Of a DNA stretch of 64,000 nt, positions 4,331 to 62,129 are shown piece after piece. The DNA is taken from the NCBI RefSeq assembly GCF_040954835.1, contig NC_090716.1:6311605-6375604 (forward strand). The letters run 5' to 3'. Below the pieces are notes generated by a model. The model saw nothing but the letters and a program-made list of their open reading frames with translations, did no database searches and was not told the origin of the DNA. Position 1 is the stretch's first letter. Each line of letters starts with the position of its first letter. Made by a program: the position numbers and the translations under genes. This stretch comes from Lepisosteus oculatus (Eukaryota > Chordata > Actinopteri > Semionotiformes > Lepisosteidae).

Positions 4331-4797
4331 ACCAGCAGCCATATCACTCTGCAACTCACAACTGGCAACCCACTGGAGCTCAGCAGGTGTGAGCCTGGTC
4401 AGTACTTGGATGGGAGACCTCCAGGGAAAAACTAAGGTTGCTGCTGGAAGAGGTGTTAGTGGGGCAAGCAGGGGGCGTCCTAATGCCCCAGTAAAGTGAT
4501 ACAGGATGAGACGTAAAACTGAGGTTTCATTAAAAATCCTACGGCATTTCTCAAAAAGAGTAGGGGTGTAACCCCGGTGTCCTGGGTTTCAAATTGGCCC
4601 TTACCAATCATGGCCTCCTAATAATCCCCATTTTTGGACTGGCTTCATTACTCTGCTCTCCTCCCCACTGATAGCTGATGTGTGGTGAGCGTTCTGGCGC
4701 ACTATGGCTGCCGTTGCATCATCCAGGAGGGGAGTCCCCATTACCTGTAAAGCGCTTTGAGTGGAGTGTCCCGAAAAGCACTATATAAGTGTAAGCA
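4331..4797 (+). mobile_element. 5S-rRNA-derived SINE (SINE3-like)
   Basis: The head matches 5S rRNA: a CCATATCACTCTG segment corresponds to the 5' part, AGCTCAGCAGG to the A box, and the run from 4392 (GCCTGGTCAGTACTTGGATG, then GGAGACC) to the C-box part of the internal pol III promoter. The 3' tail (AAGCGCTTTGAGTGGAG, then AAAAGCACTATATAAGTG) resembles the 3' end shared by fish L2-clade LINEs and their SINE partners, and it runs into an ATT microsatellite. A 5S head with a LINE-type tail is the layout of SINE3 elements. The middle is diverged, so this is an old copy. Confidence 0.8.
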
Positions 4798-28739: not shown

Positions 28740-29662
28740 GTTCAATTAGCATAGCCTTTATAATTTAAGATTTTATTACTGTTGCTAGTTAATTTTTAAC
28801 GTGGTTAGAAATCATATTGACTATATATATAATGACTATACTGTATTGACTGACTATAAACGTATGTACATTAACAGTAGCTTTGCTGTCTATTCTAATT
28901 ACTACTTTAATGCCAGTCGTGCTTTTGACTGAAATTAAGCATGGGAGCGTGTGTAACCCGTCGTGTGAAACTGTACATATTTCAGACGTTCAGGTGCTTA
29001 AGAGTTCGTTTCTTCTTCTCTGGTGCAGAGGCGATATTTCACATTTTTAGTCATGCTGGCGCTTTAAGACAGCAGGATCTTGATGTCTGAAGGAGGGACT
29101 AGGGCCCTGCATTTCTAGTCTGACGTGTGCATTAAGAGATAGGGGTTAGGGAGCGTGCGATTTGGAAAGGATGGGGAAGAGGGTAGTTCCGTGCTGCAAA
29201 ACGCAATGTTTCGACTGTGGAATCTTCCTTGAGTGTTCGGTTCCACGGCCCGACGCGTTCATTGTGTCGCTGTTTCTTATATGATTTTCGCGTGAAATGG
29301 ACCTACTTGTTCCGTATTAGGCGTGGTAAAAAGAAACACAACACAAGGAAGATAACCGGTTTTTCGTACTGCGGGGCTAATAGTTGGGGCAGGGTTTGGA
29401 ATTTCTTCTGCCTTTGTTGTAAGGATTCGTGTGTGGAGTGACGTTTTTTTTTTTTGCTAAAGTATCTTCACAGAGGTTTGCGACCACGCCTACATGGTTG
29501 TGGACTCGAAACGCCTGGTTTTTCAGTGAGGCTGGTAGGTGGGAGGACTCAGGAAGTTGACAAGGAAGGAAAAGAGCCCTCGTACGTGTGAAAGGTCGTG
29601 GGCACCGCGTACAGTCATCACATGTAAAACGTTTCGCTTATTTTGTGCTTCTTTGTTTTGTC
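28740..29662 (+). promoter_or_regulatory. slc35c1: Promoter and 5' leader region of slc35c1
   Basis: This interval is richer in GC and CpG than its surroundings from about 28.9 kb onward, lies between two divergently transcribed genes and leads into the slc35c1 start. It has no clear TATA box. A 25-codon in-frame extension upstream of the chosen ATG begins at 29588 but does not match the family N-terminus. The exact start site cannot be read from sequence. Confidence 0.45.
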
Positions 29663-34662: not shown

Positions 34663-37600
34663 ATGGTGGTGAATTCCGTGCACTGGTTCCGCAAAGGGCT
34701 GAGGCTCCATGATAATCCGGCTTTACAGGAAGCTTTGAATATTTCGGACACAGTGCGATGTGTTTACATTTTGGATCCCTGGTTTGCTGCATCGGCTAAT
34801 GTAGGAATCAACAGATGGAGGTTTGTCTTTTATGCTACGTGATTGCATCGTGTGTCCCATTCAGTGCGTTAATGGCGTTCTAGTTTGAATCAGCTTAGTT
34901 TTCTAAACATTTGTGTGTCACGCCAGAGTCGTCACTGCTCGTGTTGGAAACACATGAACGTGGTTTGTGCAGTATCACAGAGCAGAGGCATACGGGGTGT
35001 CCGTGTCTTTTTCTGTCCACTTCCAGAGGTCACTGCATGGCGAATATTATTACATCACTGTAAGGCCATATGACTGCTCTTGCATTTAGGTGAACCTTTT
35101 GCCAAAATGAAACTTCGTTTCCATTTGTCTTGGCAACAATGTACATTGCAAGTAGGAATGGTTACATGTGTTTGCGTCCTGATTAGGATAACCCACTGCC
35201 TTTATCACGCAAAGTTATGCAGTGACTTGCAATTTTCGTGATCAGTGTTACCTTTTAAGATCTTCATTTTGTACTATAGTAACTAGTCTTGTTTAGTTTT
35301 CAGATATTTGTAAATAATTTGACGGGTTTGAATACAAATCAGTTAGGATTTTATATTGAGAATGCCGTCCCAGTAAACCTCTTGCAAGTTGATAATGCTG
35401 TCATTTCATTTCTGAATCCAGAGAAATAATTTAGGGATATAAACTATTGCAGTCCCTCCTGACCACCTAATAATTATGTTGTGAAGAGAATGGATGGAGA
35501 AATGTCTCAATGTCTGAAAAAAGACTCAAAACAACAGCAGAACCACAGCAGGAATCGATTACAGAGATCTGGGAACAAGTTCAGCTAAATGGATTAGTTA
35601 CCCTCAGTGCCTGAGAACCCTGTTGTCCAAAAACTTGATGAGATGGGGTTTTCCCAAGACCAGGGTTGGAAACCACTGAGGAGCAGGAAAGCTAAAGGAT
35701 GGCAGTGGTCATGTGAAATGTGACTGAATTATTTTGCAAAGTAGACAATTTGCTAGTTATCTCAAGGGTTTTAAAGATCCTTTTTACTCGACAGTTTAGG
35801 CTAACTTTATTCTCTCATTTAGATTCCTCCTTGAATCATTAGAGGATCTGGACGCCAGCCTGAGAAAACTGAATTCCCGACTGTTTGTTGTGCGAGGGCA
35901 GCCAGCAGATGTGTTTCCCAGATTATTCAAGGTAAGCTCTGTCGTTCTGTCTCTCTCATGATATTGACATTCGTTCCATTTTTATCTGCTGACTGTGCTC
36001 ATTGAACTTTTGCACACATTGAAATCTGTCTACTGTAACTATTGTCGATTTACATTATGGTAGTTTTACTGCAGCAGTCCGAATGAAGGGTATTTCTCAA
36101 GGGTAGAGCAGTACACATCTGGGATTTGAACTCACAACCTTCCAATTGAGAGCTAGATTCCTAACTACTATTCCTGCATGCATCATTTATTTTGCTCTTA
36201 AGAAGTAGGGTAAATTTCAAGGAATTCAACTGAAATAATATGTACTTAATATTCTGTTTAGTAGTATTTTTTGATTTTCTTTAATGTATTACAATGCATC
36301 GTTCATCATGGAGATTCCTAAATAATCTTTGTAAGTAGTTTTATTGTTCTGTAAATGTCTTTCGTGAAGACTGTTCTAAAATGTGAATAAGTGTTTTTTT
36401 CATCTGGGTTTGGATCTTTACTACTAACTGGAGTCACCGAGGTCATTAGGAGTTCATTTTTAATTAGCTTAATTTGAAGAGTGTTGCTGTTGGTCTGTGA
36501 CGGCATGCAGAGTATTCTTTTACTATATTTAATGGGAAATGTTCACGTTAATGGGGAAATAAAGAGTTCCTTTTCAGCATCTATTGACTCTGTCCTTTTT
36601 TTAATAAGATAAAGCTCGATATTCATCAAAATTTGCTCACAATTTCTTTGAGAATGATCTTCATCATGAGGGACATGGAGTTCTTAGTGATATTTCAATA
36701 TCTCAAGAAAATGTGATATGATATAATCTTTTGTGACAGTATCCACTCTTCACATTTCACTTTCATCAAGATCAAGCCTAATGTGTGAAGTTATTGAAGT
36801 TCCTTGTCATGAAATCAATATCCTCAGCACATGTCTGTTTGAAGAGGCTAGTAACATTTTCTGCTGCTTCTGCTAGGGAAATGAACTCATGAAAGTGTTT
36901 TGCTTAGGTTCTGTTTTTGAAAATTGCTTCAAAGAAGATTCATTTTAGCAATATATTTAAATACTTAAGAAAATTTCTAGATTTAATCATACAATTAAGG
37001 CTTTCTAGTTTTAGATTTAAATGGCAATTTCACTGTTGAGTCATTCCTAATTAAACGATAGCTTTTTTGGCATGATTTATAAGACTGATTTTGAAAAAGC
37101 TTTTAGCTATGCATTATGAAGGAGCAGAACTATTATGTGCTTTTATCTGTTTTTCTCCATCATTATGAGATGTCTCACTCTTGTGTTAAAAGTCACAGTA
37201 TTTTCCCTTTCAGGAATTTCTGGTGCTTGTGTATAGGAAAAACAGTAAAGATTCATTCCATGCTGAAAAGAGAAGAAAAGAAACTCAACATTTCAGCTGT
37301 GAAGCCTTCTTTGAGTCCATTGGGTAAACAATGGACATTTTTTTAGTACAGACTGCAAAATATTTCTTCATAGCATTTGTTACATATGAGTAAAATCTTA
37401 TGTTGTGAAGAGGAATTGTTTGATTAGGAAGGAGTTCTCTTACGAACCTCTTTCAGGTTAGCACAGGCCAAATGAATAGCTCTTTTAATGCCCTTCACAT
37501 AGCAAAAATAGCTCAAGCATGTTTATAGTTTATGAATGATGAAAAATTACTTAAACCACTCTTAATCGGATTTTGTTTCAGAATACCAAAAATGTCTGAC

Positions 37601-47819: not shown

Positions 47820-49381
47820 CTTTAGGGAAAGCAATGTTGAACTTGACATGATGGGACAGTGGGTCAGAGGTTTGTCTGCAATGGGGAAGAGAATAACCAG
47901 TGTTTGGTTTTGTATGTCTTAACACATATTAATGTTCCTTTTAAAAGAAACTGCTATTCTCCAAACTTTGGTTTCCTGTCAGGTACTTTGAAAAACTGAA
48001 GCTTTATTTCTCCGTAGAGTTTAAATTACAACTAACCTTAAGCCATAATGATCATAATGAATTCAGATCTCTTGCGTTAAATTGCTTTCTGCCGATCACC
48101 TGTTTTAGCTTGTTTTCAACAAATAGCAAAGAAAAAGCTTTTTGTCAAATGTTAATGTGTGGCTTTCAGATTTTGTTTGTTCATTCTTCGTTTTCTAAAT
48201 TGTGAAATGTTTGTATCATAAATCTCATTTTTGTTTGTTTTAAGAGAGTTTGTAAAGTGTAAAATACTTTTATTCCTAAAATAAAAGCAGCTTCTATGAG
48301 TAATCAGCAACTGATTCCTGTCTGTATCTTATACAGCTCAGACTTAGCATAAGGTGGATGAGGAAAGTTTGTGAGGTACATACTGTATCGTATTTGATCA
48401 GTGTTTTGTTCATGAGGCCAAGTGTCTGTCAGTTTGGCCTTCTATGACCCGGTATTCCTGTATACTGATGTATATACAATATGTTCTTTAACAAATATAA
48501 TATGATTAAAGAATACAAGAGATAAGATATACAATATCTCAGTTTTCTTACATGCTCCTTGTATGATGTGGTTAAATAGAAAGTAAAATAAAAGTTTAGA
48601 TAAACAACATGTTTGTGCAAGTCAAATGGGGCATTGTCATTTTATAATAGTAAGATACTGTAGTTGAGTTCTAGTTGCATTACATAAGCAACTTTTGCTG
48701 TTTTACTGTGTGTAGTTTTATTTGGGGTGTGTTTAACAAAGCTTGATTACAGATTTGAATTGGAAAGCTTAGATTAGTTTCCAAAATTGTGATTGATCCA
48801 TGGGTGCAGTTCCTACAGGGCTTTCAACAGAAATGTACAGTCAATACCTTTTTGCCTGTAATGTGTAGTGTTTCTCACTAGAGGTCTCCTTTTCATAATA
48901 AAGTTATGCAACAGCTTAATCAAAAAATGATTTTTAAAAACAATTATATCAGAGTGTGATGTCTTTATCTTATCTTATAATGGCTAAATGGCAGTATTTT
49001 AGTCTTTCTTATGAAAAGACAGTAAATTAGCTTTCTTGGACCAGGTCCTGCCAATTATGATCTCCAGTTTCATTTGCACAAGCTAAACAAAAAGGCATCA
49101 CGTACACATTTGCTCTTAAAATTGAATAAGGCATGTGTGAGAAAAAGAAATGACACCTAGCACTTTAGATTTTGTCTGCAGCTACAGTACATGGAACTAT
49201 TTCAGTAGGAGTGGTATTGTAGCGTATTACAGAAGGGTTTGTTTTTGCTCTGCTTCTTATTGATTCGTTATAGAACCAATTACCCCCAGCAATTTTCTTT
49301 ATCCATATAATTCCCTTGGACAGTTTACAAAACTCAGGTTTTTGTTTCAGTTATTGGAAAGTCAACTTATTTTCTCTTGTA

Positions 49382-49496
49382 GCTCAAGTAGGGAGCTGCA
49401 TCAGCAGGCATAGGCTGCAAAGGAACAAGTGCAGGCTTATTCCATGTTGAAAAGAGAAGAAAAGAATCGTTTCAGCTGTAGAGCCTTCTTCAGGTG
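49382..49496 (-). mobile_element. Mini-element, complete copy with 15-bp target duplication
   Basis: A 115-bp insert is flanked by perfect direct repeats TTATTTTCTCTTGTA at 49367-49381 and 49497-49511. On the minus strand the order is CACCTGAAGAAGGCT, CAGCTGAAACGATTC, a CT-rich tract ending TTTTCAACATGGAATAA, then 'cttgttcctttgcagcctat' and 'gctgatgcagctc'. It is clearly the same element as at 59.4 kb. Long, variable target duplications point to retroposition. Confidence 0.85.
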
Positions 49497-52400
49497 TTAT
49501 TTTCTCTTGTACTGTGTATTTTAATAAGGTGTCCATGGCTCCAATTAATTGCTCCGGGATCTGCTGTTCACGCAGAATGTTGCTCTGGTGGACTAAAGCA
49601 GCTGAAACGTTTATGGGAGGATCTGTGTGTAAGCACCGGTGAGCCGCTGTTCCGTACATGGCCTCAGGAGCTGCTCCGCTCACTTGAAAAGAGAGCACTT
49701 TACTGCATTATGCACCGATTCTAAAACATTTAGAAGAGGGCTCGGGGAAATTACCCTTCCTTCTGCAAGGTGCCGAAAGTCAAGCCAATTAATAATCCAC
49801 AAAGGGACTGAGAGGAGTGGTATCTGTGAAAATCATGGGGAAGATTAAATTGCATCCTAGATGTTATTGATGTGCTCTTATGGTGTATTAGAAGTTTTGT
49901 AAAAAACAACAACATGGGGGTATCCACTGCTACCACTGGACTTGAACAGACCTAAAACCTTTAGGTATATGACTCCCTTGTGACTCTATTCTTTATAAAT
50001 TGTTCTGCCTTGAATTGAATCACTATCAGTCCAATATCGTTCTGTACCTTGCCATGCCTTTGATGAGCAACAGTGTAAACAGTCTGGACAAGAACAGGAT
50101 AAGTCCATTGACATCTGTTACTATGCATTAGTATCATCTTCTCACTTAGAAGCATGAATAAATACAGCAATATTCTACAATTGTCTTCTGTCAGCAACTG
50201 AAAACAGCAGTGAGATCTGTGAAAATCAGCTTTGCAATGAAGTATCAAAAAATATTGATACCCTTTATAACCGATTTTTAGCCTGACTTGATTGTTTAGA
50301 TTGTTATCATAAATAGCATTCAATAGAAAAAATGCTGTCTCTAATTTTATGTGATAAGCAGAGTAAATATAAAACTGGGCACTTTGCAGCATACACCATA
50401 CAGCTCTTTTCTTCTGTTATTTTCCAAAAATATGTTTTTTAGGGAAAGGCTGACATTAAAACAGATTGCATGAGTTTCCCAACTTGCAGGTCTGCGGGAG
50501 AAATAAGGACAAATTCATCTGGGCATTTTAAATTAATATTTTAAAAATTCCATTAGAATTTATCCTGAAATTAGGTTACTAATTCCTCTATATCTCATTA
50601 ACGCTGCTTAAATTTATGCAAAAATGTCCGTCCTTTCATGTTGACTACAGTTATCCTGCAAATTGAAAGCTACCTGGATTATTCATCATCTAAAATTCAA
50701 TTGGCTGTAATTATCTAAAGTGCCTCAGCAAAAATGTAGTATTTGGGAAGGACATGGCTTAAACTGTTAGAAGGAATCCATAAAATAATTCCTTGCTGTT
50801 GCTGTATATACTGTAGCAGTTATTATGCCAGTGATCCCAATGTACAATACATATAGGATGGGACCCACTTTCTCTTCATTGGATTCTAAAACAAAACTCC
50901 ACATCGAAAGAGCCTCAGGCAAGAACTGAACATTGGAACCAAGTGCTTCTCTAGTTGAGAGTGCTGTCATGCAGCAGTCCTACTGTAACGGCCATGCCAC
51001 CACACTTCTGTCAGTGGAGAAAACAGATTCTAAAAATAAGGCATTCCATAGGTATATACTGTATTCAGTGCTGAGAAAACATCAGATCAGCAGCTTTTAT
51101 AGCATCTGTACATTCATCTCATGTGAAACTCTTCTGAGATACAGGTTATTTCCCGCAATTTATAAGTTTAGAATGACTTATGTTCAGTACATTTCACATC
51201 AAACAAATTATTAAAATGATGGCCTCCGTTTTGCTGTGCAAAGAAATGTTGTCATTCTTTTTCTGCACCTGGTTGTTGTTGGACCACCTGGATGATGATG
51301 ACTTTTTTAAAGAATTTTGTAGGTTGGCGGAACAAATCTTGTCTTGAATTTGCTTAATACCTGTAGGAGAACAAATACTTTTTTTTTCAAATGTACCTTT
51401 CACCTAAGCTATTGCTTAGTGAAAATGCTTGTTTTAATGAAAATACATTTTACATGCTGAGCTGGTTTGCATTCACTCTTTTCCTTTTTCGCTTAAAAGG
51501 AAAGGTTATTAAAACACATGCTATATCTGCTGATATCTGGCATGTCAGCGGAATGACTTTTGTCGGACCAGACTGACGTATCTTTCTTGTGTTTCAGGCT
51601 GTTGTGTGTTTCTAAAGCCCAGCAGGTACTATTGTACAGTATACCACAGCATTTGTTTAATGTACCTTGTTCTTTAAAGAAAATGATCTTTCTGATATAT
51701 AATTCAATTTATTGAACAGTCATTACTCATACAGTATCACATGATAATTGATTTGTAAACCATGAAATACAACATAAAGGGTGTATTAGTGCATTGGTGC
51801 ATTCATTCAGGCCTGCTGCAATCATGTTATGAATAGATTCAGGGATCACAACTCACCAGTCACACCAGGAGGGGCGTTATGGACAAGCTCGGAGATATGA
51901 ATGGGCTGTTTCCCTGGTTACAAAGCACAGTGCAGGGGTAAATAGGCCAATCAATGTGGGTAACTTGAAATGAAATATCAAATTAATCTGCAGTAACTGC
52001 ACCCAGTTGACTTGAGCTCACTTATTAGTGGAGTGAGACAGCATGAATATTAAGAGATAGAAACCATTAATAGGTAATACACTACAAACTCTGTATAGGA
52101 TAAAGGATAAGAAAGAAGTTTATGAAATGATTAAAATAACAACAGGGTCCAATTAATGAAAAGTAAAACAGGATATTTGGGATATTCCAGTAGAGGCTTA
52201 AGTAAAATAAAACTAGAAAGTTGTTCTAGCATTGAAACAGCAGAAGAGCCTTAAAAGATGGCTGATGCACTATTACTAAGTGCTGTTGCCAAGTGGGCTG
52301 GATGGGTCAAGTGAACTCCCCTCATTTGTAACGTGTTTTATGAACAGTATTTCACTCAGGTGATCACCAAGGAAGAAGTCAATAGAATGCCAGGTGGTGG

Positions 52401-58280: not shown

Positions 58281-59387
58281 TGTTCTATACAGCAGATGTT
58301 ACTGTGGATTATTTTACCTTTTTTGTCTTTTATTGTTTTTCAGCCTATTCCATCAATTTCTTCAATTTATTTCTTCATCAGTAAAACTACTGCTGAAGAC
58401 ATTTTGGACCAAGTCTGAACCACTGTGATCTATTTTTCTTCTTCAAGTACAAACGCTTTGTGGCGTTACTGCTGGTGTAGTAAGATCTATCAGAAAATAC
58501 CTGTCTGCCCTGTCAGGATTTCCCATTTAACATGAGAGTCTTTTTTGGACTTTATGTAATTGCTCAATTTAAGCATTGACTGCAAGACATTTAAGGCAGA
58601 TTTCTTGACAGTATACTGCTTCTTGACAGTGGTATTAAATCTCGCTGAACGTTTTCCTTTATTATATTTGTGCTTTTGTTTTGTCCAGTACTATATTGTT
58701 ATATACAGTACAATATACAGTTAGTGTTCAATCAGTTTGAACACCAGTAAGAAAAAAGGCTAGAGGATAGGTTAGTACATACTTTTAAAATAACTCATAG
58801 TGCATGTCTGATCTTTAAATTATAGCTACAGTTTATCGTATATGCATGGAATGTGTGCAGTTTTTCATTGCAATTGATAGCGAAAAGATTGCAGCTAAAA
58901 GTTGTCATTTTTCCAGTCCTGAGATTGTTCTGTGTTGGGATAGCTTCAGCTTTTAATATGGTGACCTAAAAAACCCCATCATATTAGTTAATGTTTGTAG
59001 GAATAAATGTGTTTTTGAAATACAGTGTTTCTGGTGTTGCACAATTATTGTTCCATTTTGACAGTAATTAAATTTAAATAATTAAATTCCAGTATAATTT
59101 CATTTGGGGATATAGCTTTCTTCATTCATGCTAAACATACCCTGATTTGGGTTATTATAGGACTGCTACGCATTGCATTAGCACAATTCCAGAAATATAT
59201 AAAACATGGTAGTCAAATTAACAGTTTTTTAAATAAGAAGCACTTAGAAAATTCAAATTAAATATATAATTTGGGAGGCCAGTGATTTGGTGAATTGGGG
59301 ATTTTTCCAACGTTTTATATAGGCTGTAGTCTTTGCTTTTGCTAGAACCAGCCTTTTCTTCTGAATTATATGGGCACTCGTGTACAG

Positions 59388-59511
59388 ACACCTGAAGAAG
59401 GCTCCACGGCCGAAACGTTGTGTTCTCTTTCTCCTTTTTTTCAGCATGGAATAAACCTATTACTTGTTCCTTTGCAGCCTACGCATGCTGACGCAGCTAC
59501 CCACCTGAACT
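59388..59511 (+). mobile_element. Mini-element, complete copy with 12-bp target duplication
   Basis: A 124-bp insert is flanked by exact direct repeats ACTCGTGTACAG at 59376-59387 and 59512-59523. Order of parts: ACACCTGAAGAAGGCTCCAC, GGCCGAAACGTTGTG, a polypyrimidine tract CTCTTTCTCCTTTTTTTCAG, CATGGAATAAACC, then 'cctttgcagcctacgcatgc' and 'tgacgcagctacc'. It has no coding frame and no tRNA, 5S or 7SL similarity that I can see. It lies in sense orientation in mapk8ip1 intron 1. Confidence 0.85.
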
Positions 59512-62129
59512 ACTCGTGTACAGTACTCTTTTATTAAGCAATCAGCTCTGTAGGATAATGTTGAAAGTCATTTACATATTATAATGTTTAAGTGTTTTAG
59601 CCTGGAAGATTTGGCCCAGGCTCAAATGTCTAAACATTATAATATGTACTGTAAATTACAATTTGAGTGAATGAGAAATGTATTCTTGTATACAGCTTTT
59701 GATTTCCTGATGTTTGTAGCATAAGGCTTCTGAACTGTAAGTCAGACAAAGACTAGACATCCTTTAAGATATACAGTGAAAACTCTATAGATAGAGTATG
59801 TTGCACATAATTGATTATAATATGTAATCTGGAAAAATGCAGTTATTTCTTTGACCTTGATAGTGCTCTTTCATCTAACTTGCGCAATCTTCATAAGTTC
59901 TCATTCAGATAAAGGTTTGACTTCTGCTGTTATAGAAAGGAGACGTGAATAAACAATTATAGTAGATTTCAATGACTCTCTTAAATTCACAAATCCATCA
60001 GAAGAATTGCAAAAGCATTTACCTGAGAAAGATGTTGGTCTGGGTGTGGTATTGCTTTTAGAAGATTTAAATATCTCAGAACACTAGAAGTTTCTAAGAA
60101 GTCATTTGTAAAATAATAATATCATCACACTCTACACATTTTGCATTCCTGGGCCCTCTCTAAAATTATTTTGAGTCTTATGTGAATTGTGTTTGTTTGT
60201 ACAACAGCTGCTGTTTGGGATAGTTTTTATTGATTCTGTTGCATGTGAAATTCAGGACTCTGAACTTCCTAGAACTGAGTTCATTGTCATTCCAAGGTCT
60301 TTTTGCTTCAAAAGCAGGAAGGCTATAGTATACTCCAGTCCCAGGGGATGCAGGTTTTTTTTTTATTTTGCACTGTGAAGGCTGTATCTGCAAGAGTAAA
60401 ATTGTAAGGGATAGTCTGAATAAAAAAATACATCCTGATCACTGTTTTGCATAATTTCCATCACCAGTTGTTGAACTTGATTTATGGTATGGTTCTTCTC
60501 TAGTTGTCAAAAGTCCATAACTTTAGTAGTTGTAATTAGTGTTCTGTGTAAATAGAACCCTCTGGAAGAGGTCTCTGCATCACAATCTGAGAACCCAGCC
60601 AGATTTCATGTTGACACAGCCTTCCGCTGGGATTGCTAATGGGGGCTCAGAGCAGCTCTCTTTTCATTGAGCATGCTATTGATATTCCTTCTGGTAGTGA
60701 TTCCTGCTTTGGGAGCTTTGAGGTATATGACCTTTTTCCCTTTTCTGTATTGATCGGAGTCAGTAGTTGTGAAAACCCAAAGAGATATGCTACAGGGATG
60801 CACTTGCTGCATCTTCTTTAGGATTACAGGCTTTGTGAAGAAATTGGTGTGTGAACGACACCTCTTTTATCAGTTGTTTAAGGTGTAAAGTCTAAAACAA
60901 ACTTCTAAACTGAAGTAAAAGAAAAGTGGTGCTGATTAATTTGTTGTTTTTTGTTTATGGTTCTGTGGTTCAATTTCTACAAACAATGCAGTGTTAATGC
61001 AGTGGGTTCTTTGAAGCTGTATAGGAAACACATTTATGGGATGGCTTGAAATGATTCAGAAATTTTGGAGACCTATGACTATGTAGGCTGAGTGAATCTT
61101 GAACTTGTAAACTGCATCACAACAAGTTGAATTACTGCTTTGTAATCTCTTTTGACAAAGTGACTAATATCATTATGATCTTCCACCTTCATGGGTCAGT
61201 AGAAAGATAATCCTGTTGGACAGATTCTTTCTTGGAGACTTAAGAGTGCCTCTGAAAGGGTGGGAAGCAGTATACTGAAGAATGACTTTGTATTGTTTTA
61301 AAAATAATAGAATTTCAAACCTTTTTTAATTCTTTTTTAGGTATAGTAAGATGACAGCAAAGTTTTTTGATATTGTCAAGGTGCAGTGTCTATATAAGGT
61401 AATCATCTGCTGTTTGTGACAGTATTACATAGCTGTCAGTCTGGATTAAGAATATGAGGCGTGCAGTACTGACAGTACATGTTTCTTTCCAGAAATATTC
61501 ATTTTGTTTCTGGTTACTAGAACTCTTATTTGAGCGAAATGGTGTTGAATCTTTGTTGAGAAAAACAGTGCAATTGTGCAGATATTAATGACTAGTAGAC
61601 TGTAAAGCAATTGACACAATCCAGTACATGTGAACTTCTGTACCTAGATTTTTAGCTAAGAGTTTAGATTGATGTCATGGTGGAGTGAGGAAACCAGAAT
61701 ATGCAGAATGACACTGAATGTAATCTTGTTGTTATCCTGCATTACCTTTCCTTTCTGTCTTACCTCATAAGTATTAAACTCCAAATATGGAATGCTTGAT
61801 TAAATCCTGTCCCGTGTTTCTTCTTAGGATAAACTGCTTGATTAAATGGCTTAGGCTACAAGTGGATTTTGAGAGAAGCATCCTGGCCAGGCTTGGGAGA
61901 AGCATGCACAAGCAGCAAACAATGGGGAAGATCACATCATGAGTGTTTATCTTGGCCTGATGCCTTTGGCATGTCACGTAATCATTTCATTGTATTCCCC
62001 ACTGTGTTCCTCAGAGTGTCTTGTGCAGTGCCTGGTGCACTTTGAAAAGGCAATTGCAAGAGACTCCTTTCAACACCACATCATTTAGATGTCCTCCTGC
62101 TACTTTACAGTACCGTTGGGCTCTAGAGT

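Follow-up and report, generated by a model that had tools for sequence, protein, structure and literature searches.

Two short inserts of one family

The 64,000-nucleotide stretch of Lepisosteus oculatus DNA analysed here (contig NC_090716.1, positions 6,311,605 to 6,375,604; referred to below as the window) carries two short mobile inserts. The first, a 124-bp unit, is most likely to be the leader of a Penelope-like retrotransposon of ~3 kb, i.e. the head of its pseudo-long terminal repeat (pLTR) together with a tail of ~40 bp, as judged from the sequences of the unit and its relatives. Each insert is bounded by its own exact direct repeat, of 12 and 15 bp respectively, as a first-pass annotation of the window had reported (Table 1). 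The right-hand 12-bp repeat opens with ACT, which may be template positions 125–127, so that this duplication is 9–12 bp long. The inserts had also been described as related and oppositely oriented; they do belong to one family, being ~81% identical when one of them is reverse-complemented (BLAST E = 3e-25), and a core pattern drawn from both copies finds just these two sites in the window with three mismatches allowed and none in 100 shuffles. Throughout, unit positions are counted from window position 59388 as position 1, with position 0 immediately before it.

The usual head of a short interspersed element (SINE), derived from transfer RNA (tRNA), 5S or 7SL, is absent from the unit, as the annotation had noted: no tRNA gene was called there and no Rfam family reached its gathering score, the two matches that appeared with E values up to 10 both lying far below gathering. 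A tblastn search gave no match to an open reading frame (ORF) of a Penelope-like element (PLE) within the window itself, and a scan of viral contigs with the unit pattern gave no matches.

The 1.2 Gb assembly that contains the window was searched for further copies. The 124-bp unit gave 195 candidates, and the 40 that were scored yielded 63 matches; among those 40, three other copies are 100% identical over positions 1–124, two of which, on contig C14, have the same flanks. A partial second copy placed head to head with the first is common among the matches. The subfamily of the second insert gave 2,967 first-look candidates, of which 40 were scored to give 42 matches. Exact matches to the last 35 nt of the unit (positions 91–125) number 1,922 genome-wide. 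Differences among unit copies come mostly from decay.

The full-length element

The annotation had suggested PLEs and retrozymes, among others, for comparison. The unit was found beside an ORF at locus L057. The order at this locus is unit, 29 nt, an ORF of 904 amino acids with its ATG at unit position 154, a 3' untranslated region (3'UTR) and then positions 1–84 of the next unit. The tandem period is 3,037 bp and the two units are 100% identical over 1,722 bp; tandem or partially tandem units of this kind give rise to the pLTRs that characterize PLEs. The ORF matches a group II reverse transcriptase (RT) model at residues 432–591 (E = 1.7e-4), far below the naming cut-off of that model, and has no RT match in Pfam; its GIY-YIG match (PF01541, residues 808–863) is weak and below the gathering score (E = 0.0079), and it has no match among PDB sequences. 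These sub-cut-off scores and the lack of a PDB match count against the assignment. By inspection, however, the ORF contains YIDD (at 552), TMDITSLY and GVAMG, which we take to be RT motifs, so that an RT domain within a single long ORF, as in PLEs, can be counted as present; the C-terminal position and the motif CISCSKC..IYIGETG fit a GIY-YIG endonuclease. Because the order of RT followed by GIY-YIG, the YIDD motif and the tandem plan all fit, we regard the ORF as that of a putative endonuclease-bearing (EN+) PLE despite the low scores. Among PLEs it could perhaps be Neptune-like. A peptide from the GIY-YIG region gave 3,446 first-look candidates in the genome, and all 150 that were scored match. 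The flank shared upstream of some unit copies runs, at locus L032, into a GIY-YIG-like reading frame.

The annotation had presented the unit as complete and as a candidate for an autonomous element. It appears instead to be the leader or terminal part of the 3-kb PLE, with 18 of 80 sampled copies (see below) continuing into the 3'UTR and 56 exact 39-nt junctions from unit to ORF leader genome-wide. Positions 4–35 have 4,576 exact genome-wide matches, just 1,346 of which extend 10 nt upstream with 3'UTR sequence, and part of this drop is ordinary mutation. The annotation had further staked its reading on most copies neither being parts of a longer element nor lacking shared ends: the outcome is mixed, as the largest class of copies does share both ends but their sequence is part of a longer element. 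The unit is most likely a known kind of element rather than an independent new one.

Contig C14 (60 Mb of 1,200 Mb) carries 17 of the 56 exact junctions, an excess that perhaps reflects a low-recombination or sex-linked region, or a local burst. At C1:6509777–6566363, nine same-strand unit copies, mostly spaced at ~6.44 kb, form a larger tandem array that carries the unit.

Ends of the copies

Copy boundaries were mapped in the first 80 of the 1,922 exact 3'-end matches, in order along contig C1; sampling by the 3' end was chosen so that full-length copies would not be favoured. Forward arms begin at −3 to +4 in 31 copies, at −9 to −4 in three, at 5–95 in 28 and at −10 or further upstream, inside the PLE 3'UTR, in 18. 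The 31 starts within the 8-nt interval from −3 to +4 compare with a maximum of 16 in 20,000 uniform simulations (66 starts, −100 to 90).

Target-site duplications, defined as an exact repeat of at least 10 bp shared by 42 nt of sequence around the left boundary and 34 nt around the right end, were sought in 70 of the 80 copies, ten being excluded because the left boundary lay near the edge of the fetched sequence or the copy entered the ORF leader. Such repeats flank 47 of the 70 testable copies, with a modal length of 14 bp, against 0.37% of 4,830 mismatched left–right pairs. Their A+T content is 74%, versus 65% in flank 20–75 nt away. The annotation's prediction of many copies with common ends and duplications of 10–16 bp is borne out, and its boundary argument, that a whole unit with defined ends was inserted by retroposition, is sound.

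Second arms and the tail

Of the 80 copies, 49 have a second arm that faces the first head to head at a distance of no more than 40 nt, an arrangement that corresponds to the inverted pLTR with an optional 30–40-bp tail that is typical of PLEs. The inner ends of the second arms fall at −4 to +4 in 30 of the 49 and the outer ends at 82–91 in 33, versus 124 on the forward arm. In another set of 39 loci, picked by score, 22 have a second arm; 17 of these have inner ends at −4 to +4 and 18 have outer ends at 82–91, with none at 115 or beyond. The two arms are commonly unequal: their inner ends differ by at least 20 nt in 20 of the 49 two-armed copies, and in ten a forward arm that begins no earlier than position 20 faces a second arm extending to 5 or less.

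Exact genome-wide matches number 9,844 for positions 58–83 and 4,498 for positions 58–93, so that ~46% of arms carry the start of the tail. The exact tail core never occurs twice in one fetched stretch (0 of 80 copies) and no second arm reaches position 110 (0 of 49). If the arms chose their start sites independently, the probability of finding no tail among the 36 second arms whose outer end lies at 80 or further out would be ~3e-10, a value that is approximate because the tail frequency includes mutated and single-arm copies. Ten head-to-head pairs (arms within 200 bp, taken from the first 100 matches to positions 58–83) carry one tail in eight cases, none in two and two in no case. As neither the 80 copies nor the ten pairs include a pair with two tails, each side of an insertion seems to use a different one of the two start sites. 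The commonest class in the sample consists of leader-only insertions that are two-armed and bounded by duplications, an observation that is new to us.

At locus L023 (C8:37639602–37643725), two PLE arms stand ~750 bp apart, with other sequence between them and a near-identical direct repeat on the outside; the intervening DNA may have been captured from the host.

The hammerhead-like motif and a two-armed array

A hammerhead ribozyme core follows the rule CUGANGA ... GAAA ... UH. Unit positions 1–36 contain the core letters together with stem I (ACAC/GTGT) and stem II, an extra A between the core and stem II, and a stem III shrunk to the palindrome ACGT; the predicted cut is between 59419 and 59420. 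A strict pattern, composed after the motif had been noticed, has a single match in the window, where the 4 bp of stem I are complementary, while 200 mononucleotide shuffles gave four matches, none with a paired stem I. The dimer-acting hammerheads of PLEs combine the core CUGANGA plus GAAA with a nearly absent stem III, the palindrome ACGU; such minimal motifs have reportedly been treated by Lunse, Weinberg and Breaker in 2017 and by Cervera and de la Pena in 2014. The predicted motif of the unit resembles them in its core, its ACGT palindrome and its PLE setting and differs in the one extra A. The Rfam hammerhead models do not score the motif, either at gathering level or with E up to 10, and minimum-energy folding of the 36 nt prefers other pairings both for the single strand and for a two-strand complex, which counts against a stable monomer and offers no help to the idea of a dimer.

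Ends at positions 31–35, around the predicted cut, account for just two of the 80 forward starts and two of the 49 inner ends, at most a slight excess over neighbouring positions. Thus, hammerhead cleavage does not set the usual insertion ends. For the anole PLE in vitro, cleavage is likewise dispensable for insertion (PMC11167929).

Locus L138 (C8:37210900–37213700) is a striking case. Here a single insertion between 16-bp direct repeats (L138:380–395 and 2257–2272) is built from a 209-bp repeat that spans positions −23 to 186 and is present ~3.7 times in inverted and ~5.2 times in forward orientation. Each of the two arms ends at −2, with 11 nt of filler. The junction from 186 to −23 has eight genome matches with up to two mismatches, every one inside L138, which is the sole array of this type among the loci examined. 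Two cDNAs (complementary DNAs) copied off one multimeric or circular RNA probably account for it; the competing explanations are that the array expanded in place at a later time or that it was copied from an array that the assembly lacks.

A proposed route of integration

What can be read directly from the DNA is the unit beside the ORF and in tandem, the common ends, the duplications of ~14 bp and the head-to-head second arms. From these we consider it highly probable that the unit is the RNA leader of an EN+ PLE and was inserted by the RT and GIY-YIG protein of that element. The 5' end of the template RNA would lie at about unit position −2 to +1, and could be either a transcription start or a processed end. 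The initiator (Inr) consensus is YYANWYY, and the sequence TCACACC at the proposed RNA 5' end fits it. Reverse transcription would begin inside the RNA, at ~83/84 or at 124, rather than at its 3' end. The endonuclease would cut the two target strands ~14 nt apart, each 3' end priming its own cDNA, one from 124 with the tail and the other from ~84 without it. With priming in the front leader, synthesis of both cDNAs would end after 84–124 nt at the RNA 5' end, giving strong-stop products that are then joined either to each other, head to head, or to the DNA end on the far side; priming in a downstream unit of the RNA would give the longer copies with 3'UTR or ORF sequence. This scheme agrees with the anole PLE in vitro, in which both strands are cut and extended and two internal RT start sites are described as accounting for the tail (PMC11167929).

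Template jumps were listed from neighbouring same-strand pieces in 139 loci (L009–L047 and L058–L157). Five of the eight jumps outside L138 leave from −3 to 0: L139 (0 to 322 and 0 to 99), L142 (−3 to 296), L144 (−1 to 160) and L109 (0 to 61). They fit run-off at a physical RNA 5' end followed by continuation on another RNA.

Several points weigh against this scheme. The RNA 5' end is deduced from DNA copies; the sample comes from one contig and required an exact 35-nt 3' end, and arm ends were set by BLAST, with a possible overshoot of 1–2 bases. The starts at 5–95 (28 of 80) and at −10 or beyond (18 of 80) imply many ordinary truncations or longer pieces, and 23 of the 70 testable copies have no repeat of at least 10 bp. 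The remaining three of the eight jumps leave from elsewhere (L099, −84; L147, −89; L045, −177), and some jumps may be two neighbouring insertions. Of 48 ORF-leader places outside L138, 19 were fetched, and just three or four of these show a piece starting at −3 to 0 (L139, L142 and L152, with L144 in a neighbouring piece). The tail lies on one arm here, whereas the start sites of the anole PLE in vitro show no strand difference (PMC11167929). Finally, second arms at three ORF-leader loci bear a tail (L140, L145 and L155, ending at 126, 127 and 134, respectively); their far insertion ends lie outside the fetched stretch, so that they neither confirm nor break the one-tail rule.

A stricter version of the scheme would be an ordered, target-primed integration involving two RNAs and two strands, with one RNA 5' end per staggered DNA end, obligately different start sites (124 and ~84) and a half-hammerhead that is completed only by RNA pairing through the ACGU palindrome and serves to pair templates rather than mainly to cut. 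We regard this version as rather doubtful.

Alternative explanations

The short form far outnumbers the ORF-bearing form, with 1,922 exact 35-nt 3' ends versus 56 exact 39-nt junctions, and its ends are common to the copies, as would be expected of an independent, SINE-like, non-autonomous retroposon with its own ends that borrows PLE enzymes. The unit at ORF-bearing L057 is, however, the same sequence (99.2%) and the longer copies are continuous with the 3'UTR (18 of 80 at −10 or beyond), so that no separate short master is needed, and we think such a retroposon improbable. A retrozyme-like route, in which predicted hammerhead self-cleavage frees and circularizes a small RNA that is later copied, would draw on the hammerhead-like motif and on the two-armed 209-bp array of L138, whose locus-specific junction is what a circular or multimeric RNA would give. 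Yet so few starts and inner ends lie at 31–35, the ends clustering at −3 to +4 and not at 33 as hammerhead-set ends would, the L138 junction (186 to −23) is away from the cut, and both L138 arms stop at −2 as if the RNA ended there; this route, too, seems unlikely to us.

Fold-back self-priming on antisense RNA, proposed for rotifer Penelope (PMC3846280), would account for the head-to-head structure in 49 of the 80 copies. It cannot make all of the two-armed copies, because in ten of the 49 the second arm includes sequence missing from the forward arm; these ten are explained by two cDNAs, each primed on its own. The inner ends lying at least 20 nt apart in 20 of the 49, the exact tail core that never occurs twice in 80 copies and the failure of all 49 second arms to reach 110 also disagree with fold-back, which we judge very unlikely. 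Longer copies could also have recombined between their repeats and left solo terminal repeats, as happens in elements with long terminal repeats; there is a precedent in rotifers, where several solo pLTRs without duplications are ascribed to recombination or deletion (PMC3846280). Recombination would yield neither an inverted second arm, which 49 of the 80 copies have, nor variable starts inside the unit, which 28 have, and as an origin for the short copies it is extremely improbable.

Comparison with known elements

With the leader of an EN+ PLE as the preferred reading, the element shares with Penelope/Poseidon and anole PAc one ORF that bears RT and, putatively here, GIY-YIG at its C terminus, units in tandem, a hammerhead-motif leader near the ORF start, a 30–40-bp tail between two internal RT starts, the use of both target strands and AT-rich targets (PMC11167929). 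It differs from PAc as described there in that the hammerhead lies wholly upstream of the ORF, whereas the PAc ORF begins at stem II; in that leader-only insertions are the largest sampled class; and in that a tail on both arms occurs in none of 80 copies, while no strand difference is described for PAc in vitro (PMC11167929). Direct pLTRs with an adjacent inverted pLTR, an optional tail (31 bp) on one pLTR, an Inr-like TCACT in the pLTR and target duplications (8–10 bp there) are shared with Penelope of the rotifer Adineta vaga, for which, unlike here, the authors report a low copy number and several solo pLTRs without duplications, and whose fold-back explanation misfits the ten unequal copies described above (PMC3846280). 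Metazoan retrozymes are likewise small hammerhead-bearing repeats with multimeric arrays, comparable to L138, and differ in that the insertion ends here are not at the ribozyme cut (PMC7761336). A literature search of limited coverage found no description of leader-only or two-armed twin-primed PLE copies.

Other features of the window

The coordinates of the inserts, their parts and two older relatives are given in Table 1. Inside the leader, window 59423–59455 (unit positions 36–68) by eye shows a pyrimidine tract running to CAG followed by ATG and AATAAA, resembling a splice acceptor and a poly(A) signal. An inverted repeat at 59573–59648, 50 bp to the right of the insertion, has two 33-nt arms (85% complementary) and a 10-nt spacer, and may be an unrelated hairpin or a small palindromic element. 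A full-length match to 5S ribosomal RNA at 4331–4449 on the forward strand (47.4 bits versus a gathering score of 38) is either a 5S copy or a 5S-derived SINE head.

Table 1. Features of the two inserts and their relatives in the window
Feature	Position	Strand	Remark
Left target-site duplication, 12 bp, ACTCGTGTACAG	59376–59387		Exact match to 59512–59523
PLE leader unit, positions 1–124, probable; young subfamily, single forward arm	59388–59511	+	99.2% identity to L057 unit over 1–127
Minimal hammerhead-like motif: ACAC, CTGAAGA, extra A, GGC..GCC, GAAACGTT, GTGT	59388–59423	+	Sequence
Tail, unit positions 84–124	59471–59511	+	Absent from opposite arm in sampled two-armed copies
Right target-site duplication, 12 bp, ACTCGTGTACAG	59512–59523		First 3 bp ambiguous with template
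Target-site duplication, 15 bp, TTATTTTCTCTTGTA	49367–49381		Exact match to 49497–49511
PLE leader unit, probable; related, more diverged subfamily	49382–49496	−	BLAST alignment to first insert
Tail part of second insert	49382–49421	−	By alignment to first insert
Target-site duplication, 15 bp, TTATTTTCTCTTGTA	49497–49511		Exact match to 49367–49381
Decayed partial copy, unit positions 7–77	37244–37312	−	nhmmer E = 4.5e-13
Possible very old remnant, head-to-head pieces	29178–29230	−	nhmmer E = 0.002

Implications

Many short copies in one genome map, almost to the base, where the RNA of a PLE has its 5' end, where its two start sites lie, how far the cuts are staggered and where template jumps occur. 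These copies indicate a single RNA end with an asymmetric pair of start sites, which is a new observation as far as we are aware, and for some of the copies they argue against fold-back self-priming. If the stricter two-RNA version of the scheme were true, the long-known head-to-head inverted repeats of PLEs would be a direct record of a two-template reaction. Annotators should be aware that an 'unknown repeat' of 124 bp such as this one can be the leader of a PLE.

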